Part shown: in pieces, positions 41,641-48,776 of the stretch | Numbering within the stretch: position 1 is the stretch's first letter | How the letters are laid out: every line of letters starts with the position of its first letter | Made by a program: the position numbers and the translations under genes | Assembly (NCBI RefSeq): GCF_014287585.1 | Contig: NZ_JACOOJ010000028.1 | Coordinates: 1-64,000 of the forward strand | DNA from: Parabacteroides hominis | GTDB lineage: Bacteria > Bacteroidota > Bacteroidia > Bacteroidales > Tannerellaceae | Reading direction: 5' to 3' | DNA: 64,000 nucleotides | Notes under the pieces: generated by a model | Database searches by the model: none | Told to the model about the DNA's origin: nothing | The model's input: the letters and a program-made list of their open reading frames with translations, nothing else

Positions 41641-42768
41641 TCACAAAGTTCCTTTCGTGCTCGGCAGTTCAAACCTGTAAATATCGCGGCGGATAGCCAT
41701 CTTGATGGAACGGGCCAAAGCCTTGAAGATTCCTTCTATCTTATGATGCTCGTTTGTGCCTTCCGCTTTAATGTTCAGGTTCATGCGGGCGGCATCGCTC
41801 AGGCTTTTAAAGAAATGCAAGAACATTTCGGTCGGCATATCCCCTACTTTCTCACGGTGAAAGGCTGCATCCCAGACTAACCAGGGACGTCCGCCGAAAT
41901 CAAGCGCCACACTGCACAGACAATCGTCCATCGGCAGGCAGTAACCGTAGCGTTCGATCCCCCTCTTATCGCCCAAAGCCTTTAACAAAGCTTCTCCAAG
42001 CGCAATAGCCGTATCTTCTATCGTATGATGTTCGTCTACTTCCAGATCCCCTTTTACCCGTACCGTCAAATCGATACCCGAATGTTTTCCGATCTGGTCG
42101 AGCATGTGGTCGAAGAAACCGAGACCGGTGGAAATCTCCGTCCGCCCATGTCCGTCCAGGTTCACTTCCACAAAAATATCCGTCTCCCTTGTCGTACGTC
42201 GAACAGTGGCCCGGCGTTCTCCGGCAAAAAGATATTCCGTAATCCGGTCCCAATCGTCCGTAATCAGGACGGGAGAAATAGCCGGATTCTCCGTGAGCAA
42301 CCGTCGAGCCTCGCCGTCATCCGGACGAAGCCATATCCCTTTTGCCCCTAAATTGACTGCCAGCTGCATATCCGTCAGCCGGTCACCTATCACATAGCTA
42401 TTTGCCAGATCATATTCGCCGGACAGATAATTGCCCAACATGCCTGTGCGAGGTTTCCGGTTCGGAGAGTTTTCTTCCGGAAAAGAACGGTCGATCAGGA
42501 TATCGTCGAAACGGATTCCCTCGCCTTCCAATGTCTTCAACATCTTGTTATGTGCCGGCCAGAAAGTATCTTCCGGAAAAGAATCCGTACCTAAACCGTC
42601 CTGGTTCGTCACCATCACAAACTCGAAATCCAGTTGCTTACGGATAAAGTACAGGTTACGGAATACCTTCGGATAAAACTCCAGCTTTTCCAGACTGTCC
42701 AGCTGATAATCCACCGGCGGTTCTATCACAATCGTTCCGTCCCTGTCTATGAATAAGGCTCTTTTCAT
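41641..42768 (-). CDS. hisB: bifunctional histidinol-phosphatase / imidazoleglycerol-phosphate dehydratase
   Basis: Two steps of histidine synthesis on one chain. 375 residues: HAD phosphatase (about 1-165; FIDRDGTIV with Asp8 and Asp10, [22 protein letters not shown]) and IGPD (about 180-375; [47 protein letters not shown], metal-binding His clusters). This fusion is common in enterobacteria and Bacteroidetes. It starts 5 nt after hisC. Confidence 0.96.
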
Positions 42769-42773
42769 ATTTT

Positions 42774-43805
42774 CTACATCCTTTTAAGCGCTTCGAGCAA
42801 AGCATCGTTTTCACCCGGCTTGCCGACTGTAATGCGAAGGCAGCCGTTACACATGGTCACGTTTGTCCGGTTGCGGACGATGATACCCTGTCTAACCAGA
42901 TTCTTATAGACCGTATCGGCATTCGTCACTTCGACCAGGATAAAGTTTGCATCCGTAGGATAAATCTTGCGCACGCAGTTCAACTCCGGCAGTGCGGTCT
43001 GCAAACGAATCCGTTCGGAAAGGATCGAACGAAGCTGGTCTTCCATCCGTTCCTTGTTTTCAAGTACATACAAGGCGCGTTCCTGAGTCAGCAGATTAAC
43101 ATTGTACGGATATTTGATCTTATTGAGGATCGCAATGATTTCGGGAGAAGCAAAAGCCATCCCCAATCGGATTCCGGCAGCCCCCCATGCTTTCGACATG
43201 GTCTGCAAGACGATCAGGTTCGGGAATTTGTCCAACTCGCCTAAGAATGAAGGTTCGATGGAGAAGTCGACATAAGCCTCGTCTATCACAACGATTCCCT
43301 GGAACGTGTTCAATACTTTATAAAGACGGTCACGGCTCAGGTTATTTCCCGTCGGGTTGTTGGGTGAACACAGGAATATCACCTTCACCCAGTCGTTTGC
43401 TGCCTCCAAAAGGCTGTCGGTATCGAGGTCGAACTTCCGGTCTAACTTGATCTTCCGGAACTCTACGTTATTGACATTGGCTGCTACTTCATACATCCCG
43501 TAGGAAGGGTCGATGCTTACGATGCTGTCGATAGACGGTTCGCAAAACGCACGGATAATCAGATCGATCGGTTCGTCACTTCCGTTCCCCAGGAAGATAG
43601 ACTCGCGTTTCACCCCTTTGAGTTCCGCAATCTTCTTTTTCAGTTCCCATTGCAAGGGATCGGGATAGCGGTTGTACGGTCTGTTAAACGGGTTCTCGTT
43701 TGCATCCAGGAAAACGGAGGCATTGCCCTGAAACTCATCTCTGGCGGACGAGTAGGGCTTCATGTTCCAGACATTGGGTCTGACTAAATCTTTTAAGTCT
43801 TTCAT
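42774..43805 (-). CDS. hisC: histidinol-phosphate aminotransferase
   Basis: PLP enzyme (fold type I) turning imidazole acetol phosphate into histidinol phosphate. 343 residues. [17 protein letters not shown] at about 35, [15 protein letters not shown] (about 78-92), [10 protein letters not shown] and the PLP lysine in [15 protein letters not shown]. The start overlaps the hisD stop by 4 nt. Confidence 0.95.
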
Positions 43806-45091
43806 AATGTGTTCAATCTGATTGTTACTGCATTCTTGTGCGCATCCAACTGCTCGTTGGCCGCCATTGCCTGAATCGTCCCGCCCAACTGCTTGATGCC
43901 GTCGGCCGTGATCTCCTGGAACGTGATCTTTTTGATAAAACTGTCCAGGTTCACGCCACTGTAGGCTTTTGCATATCCGTTGGTCGGTAACGTATGGTTC
44001 GTACCGGAAGCATAGTCGCCTGCGCTTTCCGGCGTATAGGGCCCCATAAAGACACTGCCTGCATTCTCGATCTGCCCGGCAATATCAGCATAATCGGTCG
44101 TCTGGATAATCAGATGTTCCGGAGCGTACAGGTTGGTGAAGTCGATCACTTCCTGTTTATCCTTCAGCACGATAAGACGGCTGTGGCCCAACGATTTTTC
44201 CGTGATCTCCTTACGGGGCAACCGGTCCAGTTGTTCCCGGATCGCTTGCATGACCGGTTCGACGATGCTTTCGGATGCCGTCACCAGCATGGCCTGGCTG
44301 TCTACTCCATGTTCTGCCTGGGAAAGGAAATCGGCGGCGATAAAGGCAGGATTGGCCGATTCGTCCGCTATCACTTCCACTTCGGAAGGACCGGCAGGCA
44401 TGTCGATGGCCACCTCTTTCAGGCTGACCAACTGTTTGGCTGCCGTCACATACTGGTTACCGGGCCCGAATATCTTATATACCTTCGGAACCGATTCCGT
44501 TCCGTAAGCCATCGCCGCTATGGCCTGAATGCCTCCAGCCTTGAATATCTTGCTAACTCCTGCCGTTTCCGCGGCAAACAGGATTGCGGGGTGTACCTTT
44601 CCTTCCCTGTCGGGAGGCGTACAAAGCACGATTTCCTTACAACCGGCAATACGGGCCGGGACAGCCAACATCAGGACGGTAGAGAAAAGAGGAGCCGTTC
44701 CACCCGGAATGTACAAACCTACCTTTTCTATAGCTACCGCTTTCTGCCAGCAGGTGACGCCCGGTGTCGTCTCCACCTTCTTTCCTGTAAAACACTGTGA
44801 AGCGTGGAATATCTCTATGTTATTCTTTGCCTGACGAATAGCCTGCTTCAGGTCTTCGGGCACAAGCTCCTTAGCTTCCGCTAATTCCTGTTCGGAAACC
44901 TGCAATCCTTTGAAAGTTGCAGGATCTATTTTGTCGAACTTCTCCTCATACCGGATAACGGCGGCATCTCCTCCTTTCCGGACTTCATCCAGCACCGTGC
45001 GAACCGTATCGAACAGTGTCGTGACATCCAGCGCCGGACGCAGGGCCAATGAGGCCCATTCTTCTCTTGACGGATATTTGATTACTTCCAC
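43802..45091 (-). CDS. hisD: histidinol dehydrogenase
   Basis: Oxidises histidinol to histidine with two NAD. 429 residues. [60 protein letters not shown] and YAPEHLII are family motifs. The start is GTG at 45091: a stop lies two codons upstream and no ATG fits. The unusual start codon may lower translation. It follows hisG by 33 nt. Confidence 0.96.
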
Positions 45092-45124: not shown

Positions 45125-45976
45125 TTACAAAATCATTTTCTCAATCGGTATCACCAATATACCTTCTGCTCCCAACGATTTCAGTTTACCGATGATTTCC
45201 CAGAAATGTTTCTCCGCTATGACAGACTGGACAGACACCCAGTTCTCGTCGGCAAGCGGCGTGATGGTCGGGCTCTTCATACCCGGCAGCACTTCTATGA
45301 TCTCGTTCATCTTGTCTTTCGGAGCGTTCAGCAATACATATTTCTTGCCTTCCGCAACCTGGATCGCCTCGAAACGGAACAACAGTTCATCCAGGATAGC
45401 CTGTTTTTCATCCGACAGGTTGTTGTTGGCAATCAACAGGGCTTCGCTCTGCATGATGACTTCCACCTCTTTGAGCTGATTGCTCACCAATGTGCTGCCG
45501 GAGCTGACAATATCGAAAATCGCATCCGCGAGGCCGATACCCGGCGCAATTTCCACAGATCCGCTGATTACGTGAAGGTCTGCTTTCACTCCCTTTTTGG
45601 CCAGATAAGCCTTCAGTATTTCCGGATAAGAAGTAGCGATCGTCTTTCCGGCGAACCATTCCACCCCCTGGTAATCTTCATCTTTCGGAATGGCGAGTGA
45701 AAGGCGGCATTTGCTGAATCCCAAACGTTTGATCAGCTTCGCCTCCTGTCCTTTCTCTACATATTCGTTTTCGCCTACGATACCTATGTCGGCAACGCCA
45801 TTGGCAACTGATTGCGGGATATCGTCGTCGCGAAGGAATAAGACTTCTACAGGAAACCCTTTTGCCGACAACAGCAAAATACGTTTTCCCCTGTTCAGTT
45901 TGATACCGGCTTCTTCCAAGAGAAGCATTGTTTCATCGTAAAGACGACCTTTAGATTGTACTGCGATTCGTAACAT
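45125..45976 (-). CDS. hisG: ATP phosphoribosyltransferase (long form)
   Basis: First step of histidine synthesis, feedback-inhibited by histidine. 283 residues: catalytic domains (about 1-210; AVQSKGRLYDETMLLL, VADIGIVGENEY, GSVEIAPGIGLADAIFDIVSSG) and the C-terminal regulatory ACT-like domain (about 210-283) of the long form. First gene of hisG-D-C-B; the rest of the pathway is not in the window. Expressed through the leader attenuator at 46012-46136. Confidence 0.96.
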   Translation of the reverse strand: MLRIAVQSKGRLYDETMLLLEEAGIKLNRGKRILLLSAKGFPVEVLFLRDDDIPQSVANGVADIGIVGENEYVEKGQEAKLIKRLGFSKCRLSLAIPKDEDYQGVEWFAGKTIATSYPEILKAYLAKKGVKADLHVISGSVEIAPGIGLADAIFDIVSSGSTLVSNQLKEVEVIMQSEALLIANNNLSDEKQAILDELLFRFEAIQVAEGKKYVLLNAPKDKMNEIIEVLPGMKSPTITPLADENWVSVQSVIAEKHFWEIIGKLKSLGAEGILVIPIEKMIL

Positions 45977-46011: not shown

Positions 46012-46043
46012 AATAAGGCCCACCGTAAACGGCAAGCCTTATT
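46012..46043 (-). terminator. his attenuator terminator
   Basis: On the minus strand AATAAGGCTTGCCG (46043-46030) pairs with CGGTGGGCCTTATT (46025-46012) around TTTA: 14 pairs counting G-U. TT-G-TTTTT follows. The 5' arm can pair instead with CGGTGGGCT at 46083-46075, which nearly copies the 3' arm. It ends 36 nt before hisG. Confidence 0.88.
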
Positions 46044-46074
46044 CATTTATATCATATGTTCCTACATACCACAC

Positions 46075-46083
46075 AGCCCACCG
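46075..46083 (-). promoter_or_regulatory. his anti-terminator segment
   Basis: CGGTGGGCT right after the leader stop can bind the 5' arm of the terminator (anti-terminator) or CTCCACC inside the leader (46115-46109). This is the third element needed for attenuation. Confidence 0.75.
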
Positions 46084-46085
46084 AA

Positions 46086-46136
46086 CTATTGCCCGTTGTA
46101 ATGATGATGGTGGAGATGCAGAACTGTACTTTTCAT
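46086..46136 (-). CDS. hisL: histidine operon leader peptide
   Basis: A 16-residue ORF, MKSTVLHLHHHHYNGQ, with five His codons of which four are in a row. Its ATG is about 20 nt after the promoter -7 box and its TAG is 2 nt before the anti-terminator segment. Ribosome stalling at His would free that segment; reaching the stop would cover it and let the terminator form. It is too short for usual gene calling. Confidence 0.88.
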   Translation of the reverse strand: MKSTVLHLHHHHYNGQ

Positions 46137-46156
46137 TTGTTATTATTTTTACGCTG

Positions 46157-46186
46157 CAAAGTTACAATAATAATTGAATTGGCAAA
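46157..46186 (-). promoter_or_regulatory. his operon promoter
   Basis: Minus strand TTTG (46183-46186), 18 nt, TAACTTTG (46157-46164). The start is expected about 10-15 nt before the leader-peptide ATG. Confidence 0.7.
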
Positions 46187-46229: not shown

Positions 46230-48776
46230 TCAATCGTGCAACCTGTACAAATGATCCGCCTGCTGACGGATTTTATTTGAAAGCAGGACCGGATAGTCCG
46301 GGTGGGTGGCAAAGAAATCGTCCACCTCCTTCTTAGCTTCCGGCGAAGTATGTCCGCTCAGCAAAGCCCGTACCCAGTCGCGCGGGAAAAAGATATCCCC
46401 CGTACGCTGCACTTCCTGCAAGACTTCCAGAGCCGGACGGATATAACCGACCGCTTCTTTCTGGCGCAACTGGCAGTTCAGGTTCGACAAGGCAGCCGAA
46501 GCCCACGGTTCGACACGGCGGTTCCCGGCTACGAGCAGGGATGCAAATACACTGTCGCGTACTTCCTTTCGGGGAGAGACGGATGGCGAGATGAACGCAT
46601 ATTGCCGTTTACGGTCTGGGTTGGTGATCCGGGCTTGCTGGGTTGCTACAATTTCATCGGCTTTGTCAGGCATTTGGATTGCCAGGCCGTACGACAGGCT
46701 GATATAATCGTTTTCGCTCAGCGAACAACCGGCAGGCGCTTTCCCGTCTTTCCAGAGCGCGTACAGTCTTCCGACCGCTTCCGGCGAACGGGCAATGGAG
46801 CGATACTGACGGAACGCCTGCAAACGTCTCTGGGGTTGTTCTGCCGTTGTCACGATTCGCCAAAGCACCTGTTCCAGTTTCTTCGGATCAGAGGGATATA
46901 AACGCTGGCAATTGCCGATATATCCGAGGGCTACCGAGAACAACAGGGAATTATTTTCCCCCGGCAGATAATCCAACATGGCTTCCATATAGGATTCCGA
47001 AGAGATCGTCCGGTTCAATAAATTCTCATACAGTGTAATTAACAAGGAACCTCTCAACACTTCGTCCTTGCAAACGGGAAGATAGGCCAAACAAGCCTTT
47101 GTATCTTTTTCAAGCAGACGGAAGAAACCATATCCTTTGCCGTCGGCATTGGGAATGACGAAGCTGCCTTCGCCTGCCTGCCTTTTCAAATCCACAAACT
47201 TCAACCTCTCGTCTTTTGCAAATGTAGCTTGCACTTCCTCAGTCTCCCCATCCGGATGAACGATAAGAAAAGACAAATCCTGTTCCCACAGAAGTCCGCG
47301 ACCTAATGGGTCAGACTGTTCGACATACAATTTTTTACCTGCCTCGCAAGAGATTTCAGGCATACCCTTTTCATTCACCCAGACATGGCTCCAGGCAGAC
47401 AGGTCGTCGTCCGTATATGTGTCCAAGATACCGATCAGCCCTTCCCAGGTCGCATTCCCGTAAGCATACGTTTTCAGATATTCCCGGATTCCTTTCCGGA
47501 AAGGCTCCTTCCCCATTTTCTTCACCAGCATTTCCAGGATAACCGGAGACTTATCATAGATGATATTGCCGTACATCAAGCCTGCATCCCGCATATTCTC
47601 CAGTTGCTGCTTTACCGGATTGGCGCCTGCGGTACGGTCTTCGGAATAGGCCGCCGGGATATAATCGAGCATGAAGTTCAGGGAATGGTTCACCTCCGGA
47701 AACAGAGGCTCGATCATCCGGGAGGCATAATAATTGGCAAAGACCTCTTTTGTCCAGACATCATTGAACCATTCCATCGTCACGAAGTCCCCGAACCACA
47801 TATGCGAGGTCTCGTGCGCAATCAGGGAACTGCGTCCTAAACGCTCGTTCAATGTCGGGTTCTCGTTCAGGAACATCCGCCCGTCCGTATATAAAGTCGC
47901 TCCCGTATGTTCCATTCCGCCGAACTGGAATCCCGGCATAATGATCAGGTCGTATTTGGCAAAGGGGTACGGTATCTGGGTATATTCCTCCTGCCATTCG
48001 AGTGCATCGAACACTTCGGAGGCAATATCGGGGCACTGTGCCACCTTCTTCGGATCGGTCTCGCGATGGTAGATCGAAATATTCCGCCCGTCGCGCGAAT
48101 AAGTTTCCCGTGTCAGCTTACCGGCGACGAAAGAGAAAAGATAGGTACTGAGCGGTTCCGTTTCCCGGAAATAAACCCGCCTGCGTCCGGTGACGGAAGT
48201 CGAATCCACCTGCTCGATCGCCCCGTTAGCGACAGCCTGCCAGGAGGACGGAACTTCCAACGACAGGGTGAAAACCGATTTCATATCCGGCTGGTCGAAA
48301 CAAGGGAAGAGCGTACGCGCCCGGTCAGGGACCAGCAACGTATATAGGAATTCATCCCGGCGGTTCAGCGACTGGTCGTTTGCCGTAAATTCGACGGTTA
48401 CGCGATTCTCTCCGTTTGCCACGTCTTTTGCGCCGATCACGATATGTTCGTCCTTAACTGTATAAGGGACTTTCCTGCCATTCAACAAAACCGAGGCAAC
48501 CTGTTCCGGTTCTCCCCGGAAGTCTATGATAACCGGCTGCTTTTCCCGGACGGCAAGCGTTATTTCCGCTGTGCCTGTGACGGCCTCTTCGCGCGATTCC
48601 GGGATGGAGAAAAAGAGGTTGTAACGAACCCCCTCGAAATGTTCTTTCCTGAACTGAGCCAATTCCCGGCTGACTCCCGGTTGCAACAGCACCGCATCCG
48701 GCGCAGGATTACCGCAAGCTGTCAACAAACCGATAGCCGCCACTCCTATAAGTTGTTTTATATTTTCAGTATTCAT
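46230..48776 (-). CDS. M1-family metallo-aminopeptidase lipoprotein
   Basis: Zinc aminopeptidase, 848 residues, anchored as a lipoprotein (LLTAC, Cys21). N-terminal beta domain (about 35-230), catalytic domain with HETSH (321-325) and the third ligand Glu344, and a helical C-terminal part. The substrate loop normally reading GAMEN is GGMEH here (about 286-290), a change at a position that helps bind the free amino end. Third gene of an operon with M16 and DUF4268 genes; 16 nt after the latter. Confidence 0.94.
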   Translation of the reverse strand: MNTENIKQLIGVAAIGLLTACGNPAPDAVLLQPGVSRELAQFRKEHFEGVRYNLFFSIPESREEAVTGTAEITLAVREKQPVIIDFRGEPEQVASVLLNGRKVPYTVKDEHIVIGAKDVANGENRVTVEFTANDQSLNRRDEFLYTLLVPDRARTLFPCFDQPDMKSVFTLSLEVPSSWQAVANGAIEQVDSTSVTGRRRVYFRETEPLSTYLFSFVAGKLTRETYSRDGRNISIYHRETDPKKVAQCPDIASEVFDALEWQEEYTQIPYPFAKYDLIIMPGFQFGGMEHTGATLYTDGRMFLNENPTLNERLGRSSLIAHETSHMWFGDFVTMEWFNDVWTKEVFANYYASRMIEPLFPEVNHSLNFMLDYIPAAYSEDRTAGANPVKQQLENMRDAGLMYGNIIYDKSPVILEMLVKKMGKEPFRKGIREYLKTYAYGNATWEGLIGILDTYTDDDLSAWSHVWVNEKGMPEISCEAGKKLYVEQSDPLGRGLLWEQDLSFLIVHPDGETEEVQATFAKDERLKFVDLKRQAGEGSFVIPNADGKGYGFFRLLEKDTKACLAYLPVCKDEVLRGSLLITLYENLLNRTISSESYMEAMLDYLPGENNSLLFSVALGYIGNCQRLYPSDPKKLEQVLWRIVTTAEQPQRRLQAFRQYRSIARSPEAVGRLYALWKDGKAPAGCSLSENDYISLSYGLAIQMPDKADEIVATQQARITNPDRKRQYAFISPSVSPRKEVRDSVFASLLVAGNRRVEPWASAALSNLNCQLRQKEAVGYIRPALEVLQEVQRTGDIFFPRDWVRALLSGHTSPEAKKEVDDFFATHPDYPVLLSNKIRQQADHLYRLHD

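Follow-up and report, generated by a model that had tools for sequence, protein, structure and literature searches.

A probable histidine attenuator before hisGDCB of Parabacteroides and its relatives in Bacteroidota

Does the DNA between an aminopeptidase gene and hisG in Parabacteroides hominis hold a complete histidine attenuator, as a first-pass annotation made from the sequence letters had proposed, and which of its segments are kept in related bacteria? The window, i.e., the whole stretch of 64,000 nucleotides that was analysed, carries a His-rich leader ORF and a terminator before the his genes on its minus strand, and in all likelihood this region acts as a ribosome-mediated transcription attenuator of Parabacteroides hisGDCB, as sequence comparison and modelled folding suggest. 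The mechanism is very probably the classical one, known in kind, in an element that matches no Rfam family. Indeed, none of the 4227 families reached its gathering score in the window (0 matches); the histidine leader family, which the library presumably includes, also stayed below its gathering threshold there. The map of its segments was corrected, and its relatives are widespread.

The genes at the locus are listed below, with the family models that scored above cut-off given in brackets.

45125..45976, minus strand: hisG, ATP phosphoribosyltransferase (TIGR00070 and TIGR03455), start codon ATG at 45976, first gene of the presumably regulated operon
43802..45091, minus strand: hisD (TIGR00069)
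42774..43805, minus strand: hisC (TIGR01141)
41641..42768, minus strand: hisB, bifunctional (NF003937)
46230-48776, minus strand: aminopeptidase gene upstream of the leader, 93 nt to the leader ATG

The genes hisG, hisD, hisC and hisB probably form a single operon. The first-pass annotation had placed a promoter, a leader, a segment and a terminator in this order before hisG, and all of them were found on the minus strand at about the places it gave: from 5' to 3', TTTG/TAACTTTG, the ORF MKSTVLHLHHHHYNGQ, CGGTGGGCT and, after a spacer, a stem of 15 pairs with its T tract. The elements, including the pairings discussed below, are as follows.

46157..46186, minus strand: predicted promoter, TTTG at 46186-46183, an 18-nt spacer and TAACTTTG at 46164-46157
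46086..46136, minus strand: leader ORF MKSTVLHLHHHHYNGQ, ATG at 46136, 16 codons with five His, stop codon TAG at 46088-46086
46058..46124, minus strand: outer part of pairing 1:2, GTTCTGCATCTCCACCATCATCAT at 46124-46101 with GTGGGCTGTGTGGTATGTAGGAAC at 46081-46058, predicted by the fold without a ribosome
46082..46095, minus strand: conserved hairpin, the inner part of pairing 1:2, CGGGC at 46095-46091, loop AATA, GTTCG at 46086-46082
46075..46083, minus strand: segment 2, CGGTGGGCT, 5' side of the antiterminator
46044-46011, minus strand: intrinsic terminator stem of 15 pairs, followed by the T tract, with 34 nt from the stem to the hisG start
46030..46040, minus strand: segment 3, AAGGCTTGCCG, common to antiterminator and terminator
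46015..46025, minus strand: segment 4, CGGTGGGCCTT, 3' arm of the terminator, with the T tract running to about 46003

The 16-aa leader with its five His codons was confirmed at 46136-46086, four of these codons being consecutive, and its stop codon lies partly in the loop and partly in the 3' arm of the conserved hairpin. CGGTGGGCT is likewise present, two bases after the stop (46083-46075) and not directly after it as had been proposed. We take TTTG/TAACTTTG to be a match to the Bacteroidota -33/-7 consensus. The motif TAnnTTTG was found 8-80 nt upstream of the leader ATG in 55 of the 58 leaders examined, the window included (8% in shuffles), and in 34 of the 58 it lies at -28. Of the short ORFs of 7-45 codons that start with ATG in the 64-kb window, seven have at least three His in eight codons, and by eye only the leader among them has five. 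Over a set of 62 leaders, the window included, the number of His ranged from three, which was the entry threshold of the set, to seven, with a median of five. Both His codons are used (258 CAT and 48 CAC), so a synonymous change of the His codons seems to be tolerated. Thus, the short ORF rich in codons of the product amino acid that is expected of an attenuator stands before hisGDCB (5 of 16 codons) and is conserved.

The switch may be pictured in the following way. Transcription probably begins just upstream of the leader ORF. Without a ribosome, the leader would fold on itself (1:2) and the terminator 3:4 would form; with charged His-tRNA, the ribosome would reach the stop codon and cover segment 2, and the terminator would form as well. 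When His-tRNA is scarce, the ribosome would stall on the His run and disrupt 1:2, whereupon segment 2 could pair with segment 3 and RNA polymerase would read into hisG. The parts of such a switch are in place, they are conserved, and their alternative pairings are compatible; read-through would respond to histidine, and transcription is probably coupled to translation at the his leader. In classical attenuation, which was worked out in enterobacteria, the ribosome must keep pace with RNA polymerase, and Bacteroidota mostly lack Shine-Dalgarno initiation. A conserved his attenuator of Bacteroidota would make this coupling testable in an abundant gut lineage, and the alignment supplies exact positions for mutants.

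A HisG scan gave 328 relatives, and the best 80 loci were examined. Their titles name Parabacteroides, Tannerella or Tannerellaceae in 72 cases, Massilibacteroides in three, and other or vaguer Bacteroidales names in the rest, the nearest HisG among these best 80 of 328 being 98% identical (Parabacteroides acidifaciens). The core element was recognized by pattern at 63 of the 80 loci, and the conservation of the His-rich ORF, on which the earlier proposal depended, holds: a leader with at least three His was found in 62 of the 64 element-bearing sequences (window included). The two exceptions, L064 and L065, retain the hairpin and terminator with a leader below three His codons and are perhaps decaying attenuators. 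The pattern-defined element is missing in 17 of the 80 loci (L011, L035, L040, L041, L042, L047, L049, L058, L060, L066, L070, L073, L074, L076, L077, L079 and L080). Among these, L049 and L060 still have a leader rich in His, beside a hairpin that has diverged, L042 and L073 hold apparent remnants, and L079 offers just 17 nt upstream of hisG. Before hisG at L073:11-82 there is a tRNA-Gln gene (anticodon ctg) followed by an apparent terminator, with no His leader. Direct repeats with a 23-nt spacing, of two different sequences, occupy the leader's place upstream of hisG at L041:1822-1936 and L011:703-841.

With zero mismatches, the core motif occurs at the hisG site only in each of three Parabacteroides genomes; a second copy was rejected, the other matches having three mismatches and numbering 6 vs. 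4 for a reversed-pattern control. The hisF operon lies elsewhere in three Parabacteroides genomes (hisF recognized by family model, its neighbours hisH, hisA and hisIE by eye), and a leader before it was also discarded, as neither G001 nor G002 has a short ORF there that reaches three His in eight codons. In the hisF region of G003, two nested ORFs reach the three-His threshold and are unlike a leader.

Pairing was analysed in an alignment of 62 sequences, the window included. Unaided, RNAalifold returned the terminator, a small hairpin where the leader ORF ends, and two pairs flanking this hairpin. In the window itself, three terminator-like sites were found in the 401 nt scanned (0.3 +/- 0.6 in shuffles), with 46044-46011 having by far the longest stem. 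The fold of leader plus terminator had a z of -2.46, with 2 of 200 shuffles equally good, vs. -0.27 and 72 of 200 for the leader without the terminator, and therefore the excess fold stability sits in the terminator. Terminator and hairpin, taken as a named structure, are paired in 98.0% of cells (28-58% in slid versions), and 0 of 500 shuffles attained any of five measures, an excess that supports the structure rather than proves it, since related sequences can exceed such shuffles by kinship alone, without structure. Changes on both sides were seen in 5 of the 11 pairs of the terminator helix and in one hairpin pair. Hence, the intrinsic terminator that an attenuator has between leader and first gene is present, with covariation. 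The mutually exclusive pairing 2:3 is kept throughout the 62 sequences, 98.9% of 558 cells being paired (30-52% in slid controls). It has no change on both sides, one-sided changes only, and does not exceed shuffles, so that covariation is uninformative here and the antiterminator appears to be constrained rather than covarying.

It could be argued that leader translation acts on hisG chiefly in a different way, such as through Rho access or re-initiation at hisG, and that the hairpin is secondary. Some distant loci do have a His-rich leader and no terminator recognized by the scan, as, in a set of 193 loci that includes five repeats, a His-rich ORF is present in 164 and is accompanied by a terminator in 125. 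However, the terminator is strong and covarying in the window and its family, and we consider such a route very unlikely.

The proposal had let CTCCACC in the leader pair with the middle segment, and this had to be revised: the complementarity exists as claimed, and CTCCACC is not a conserved segment, being present in 1 of 62 leaders, the window alone. The conserved part of 1:2 is the short hairpin with the consensus CGRRC-loop-GUUCG, which is paired in 98.4% of cells over the 62 sequences and appears in the unmasked fold of 49 of the 62. In rows L036 and L050 the alignment of the hairpin is shifted by one position, an error that accounts for four of the cells counted as "broken"; L025 has one true mismatch. 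The leader stop codon starts in or close to the hairpin loop in 54 of the 62. Most leaders end in NGQ or close variants (NGQ 24, NGR 7, SGQ 6 of 62), which could mean that the nascent peptide acts, its C-terminal NGQ stalling or releasing the ribosome in place of scarce His-tRNA at the His codons. Nevertheless, 7 of the 62 leaders (L025, L036, L039, L045, L050, L059, L061) pass the hairpin in another reading frame and have other peptide ends (IVR, TVR, LVR, ADS), with the stop lying downstream in five of them, whereas the RNA sequence of the hairpin is retained in all seven with the one mismatch in L025. Moreover, the codon changes in the 5' arm are mostly purine changes that preserve pairing with U. 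Because the hairpin is kept where the reading frame differs, it belongs to the RNA and is not a motif of the peptide, and control by the nascent peptide is very unlikely.

The outer part of 1:2 fared less well. In the window, a looser outer pairing is predicted between the Leu-His codons and GGUAUGUAG. Across the 62 sequences, the outer stem has no significant covariation (134 of 171 cells, counted on the 19 of 62 rows that were in register, a value matched or exceeded by 276 of 2000 shuffles), and as at least six outer pairs also form in 85% of shuffled leaders, a criterion of this kind is useless. Compared with the shuffled leader, the real 1:2 fold is better by a mean of only 2.5 kcal/mol over the 62, with z<0 in 54 and z<-2 in 9, and in silico the leader fold sequesters segment 2 in this set. 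Covariation of all three pairings had been suggested as a check, and it was observed for the terminator, came down to a single two-sided change in the inner part of 1:2, was replaced by one-sided changes in the kept pairing 2:3, and failed in the outer part of 1:2.

The dependence of the switch on ribosome position was modelled on folds that ended with segment 3. In these, the bases under a ribosome footprint, which reached from 18 nt upstream to 12 nt downstream of the first A-site base, were barred from pairing. The footprint size is that of E. coli, and the masked fold describes an equilibrium, as a stand-in for what is a kinetic process. Without a ribosome, segment 3 was paired with segment 2 at a mean fraction of 0.04, and a single leader of the 62 went beyond 0.5. 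This mean was 0.69, 0.72 and 0.81 when the A site was placed on the first, middle or last His codon (beyond 0.5 in 55, 55 and 58 of 62, respectively), and it was 0.00 with the ribosome at the stop (0 of 62), partly by construction as the mask covers segment 2. When the leader was shuffled, the value without a ribosome went up to 0.38, the real one being lower in 60 of the 62. Followed by ribosome position, the pairing exceeded 0.5 from about 30 nt before the hairpin, reached a peak of 0.87 just before it and was 0.08 three nt into it. The His run falls within the stretch that favours antitermination, from about 30 nt to 1 nt upstream of the hairpin, and thus sits where stalling would matter; in silico, the switch depends on ribosome position as in an attenuator. 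The proposed four-segment his switch is thus upheld by the conserved His ORF, promoter, antiterminator and terminator in Tannerellaceae together with the switching in silico, with its 1:2 detail replaced by the CGRRC/GUUCG hairpin.

The distribution beyond the close relatives was followed in two draws, both of them mostly better HisG matches and not representative: a phylum draw of 89 of 170 other hits (the 29 best, then 60 hand-picked) and an order draw of 69 of 74 other hits. Within 450 nt of hisG, 65 of 89 loci of the former and 51 of 69 of the latter have a short ORF in which a stretch of eight codons holds four or more His, compared with 1 of 89 and 1 of 69 on the reverse strand. No other amino acid rose above 13 of 89 and 12 of 69 on the forward strand, and Met on the reverse strand (34 of 89 and 28 of 69) is the complement of CAT runs. 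Eight of the 60 hand-picked loci (L222-L229) belong to a HisG group that shares about 34% identity with the query, and none of the eight has a His leader. The hairpin and T tract might be taken for the 3' terminator of the aminopeptidase gene, with coincidental His codons, since that gene lies on the same strand, 93 nt before the leader ATG. This reading is very improbable and was rejected: of the 60 element loci for which 800 nt or more are available upstream, just 14 have the aminopeptidase there, while the element stays with hisG. The promoter motif between the aminopeptidase stop and the leader and the forward bias of His-dense ORFs also speak against it.

As to the attenuator reading, masked folds of the wider set gave, in 80 of 134 modules, a His-stalled pairing of the terminator 5' arm at least 0.2 above both other states, an only moderately clear result, as the best His position was used and favours this reading. 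Five loci (L201, L206, L212, L214 and L235) have His-rich leaders with up to 10 His and no evident terminator before hisG in the folds; these may be regulated by another route.

A 2004 paper by Vitreschak and others (FEMS Microbiol Lett 234:357) reportedly mentions some attenuators in Bacteroidetes/Chlorobi. The his leader of E. coli has seven His in a row. The window differs from the E. coli/Salmonella system in its five His (four consecutive), its Bacteroidota promoter and the short conserved hairpin at the leader stop, and shares with it, as far as the available text of the comparison goes, the His-run leader ORF, the antiterminator/terminator alternatives and the codon-specific sensing (PMC9413887). 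His attenuators are named there in Proteobacteria, with some Firmicutes added; those of the Bacillus cereus group, Eubacteriales and Erysipelotrichales resemble the present ones in their leaders with three to five consecutive His, antiterminator and terminator, and in having been found by comparison, and differ in being from Firmicutes. Words beginning with Bacteroid- are absent from the main text of that article (PMC9413887). As summarized in 2010, in the part of the article available, amino-acid leader-peptide systems were known only in Proteobacteria and Actinobacteria, and Firmicutes were then added (PMC2965389).

The remark of the first-pass annotation that such leaders are best known in Proteobacteria is right, although a precedent exists in Bacteroidota. 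For Flavobacterium psychrophilum, the accessible text speaks of "strong clues" for leader-peptide attenuation before amino-acid operons, and structured 5' elements, one of them before hisG, also occur in other genera of Flavobacteriaceae (PMC9723704). This is the same phylum and another family, and the accessible text shows no leader sequence or segment anatomy. In Bacteroides thetaiotaomicron, short ORFs in long 5' UTRs were described as reminiscent of attenuation leaders, the word histidine being absent from the text available (PMC7366714). Leader genes have also been counted by their distance to the next gene in many phyla including Bacteroidetes, with no his leader of Bacteroidetes in the available portion of that report (PMC4833913). 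Among the literature matches listed, from a search mostly of journals without subscription, none described a his leader for Parabacteroides, Bacteroides or any other member of Bacteroidales in the portions available.

The most novel finding, and the part most worth following, is the tandem form in relatives. Two His leader ORFs, each with its own terminator, stand in series before hisG in 14 distinct genomes among 188 loci (the 193 minus five repeats), distributed as follows, while the window has one module only.

L142, L146: tandem modules in the G330 family, 2/2 genomes
L157: tandem modules in G240
L244, L245, L249, L250, L252, L267, L270: tandem modules in the G346 family, 7/28 loci with enough upstream DNA
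L156, L274, L275, L276: tandem modules in the G264 family, 4/5

Judged from this anatomy, the chances seem evenly balanced that three or more families of Bacteroidales include genomes with two complete His modules for the same signal, one behind the other on a single transcript, with the single module of the window as the simple form of a class across much of the phylum. The distance from the first terminator to the second ORF is 4-84 nt; TAnnTTTG is absent from this gap in 14 of 14 and present upstream of the first ORF in 7 of 14. A module beyond -190 was found in 13 of 188 loci on the forward strand, compared with 0 of 188 on the reverse strand and 0 of 564 mononucleotide shuffles. Counting against this reading, the masked-fold switch was seen in 10 of the 28 tandem modules, and in both modules of only one locus (L249) among the 14. 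The tandem attenuators of Salmonella mgtCBR also have two short leader ORFs on one leader mRNA, and, in the text available, respond to two different signals, ATP and proline (PMC3641672), vs. His codons in both modules of the relatives. No same-codon tandem pair in a biosynthetic operon is named in the available text of the literature matches listed. If true, a tandem attenuator should multiply read-through probabilities, tighten repression and steepen the response, and the relatives would offer a natural test of how stacked like sensors affect a response curve. By eye, the upstream modules are alike between the genomes of a group, and the tandem arrangement therefore looks kept rather than fresh.
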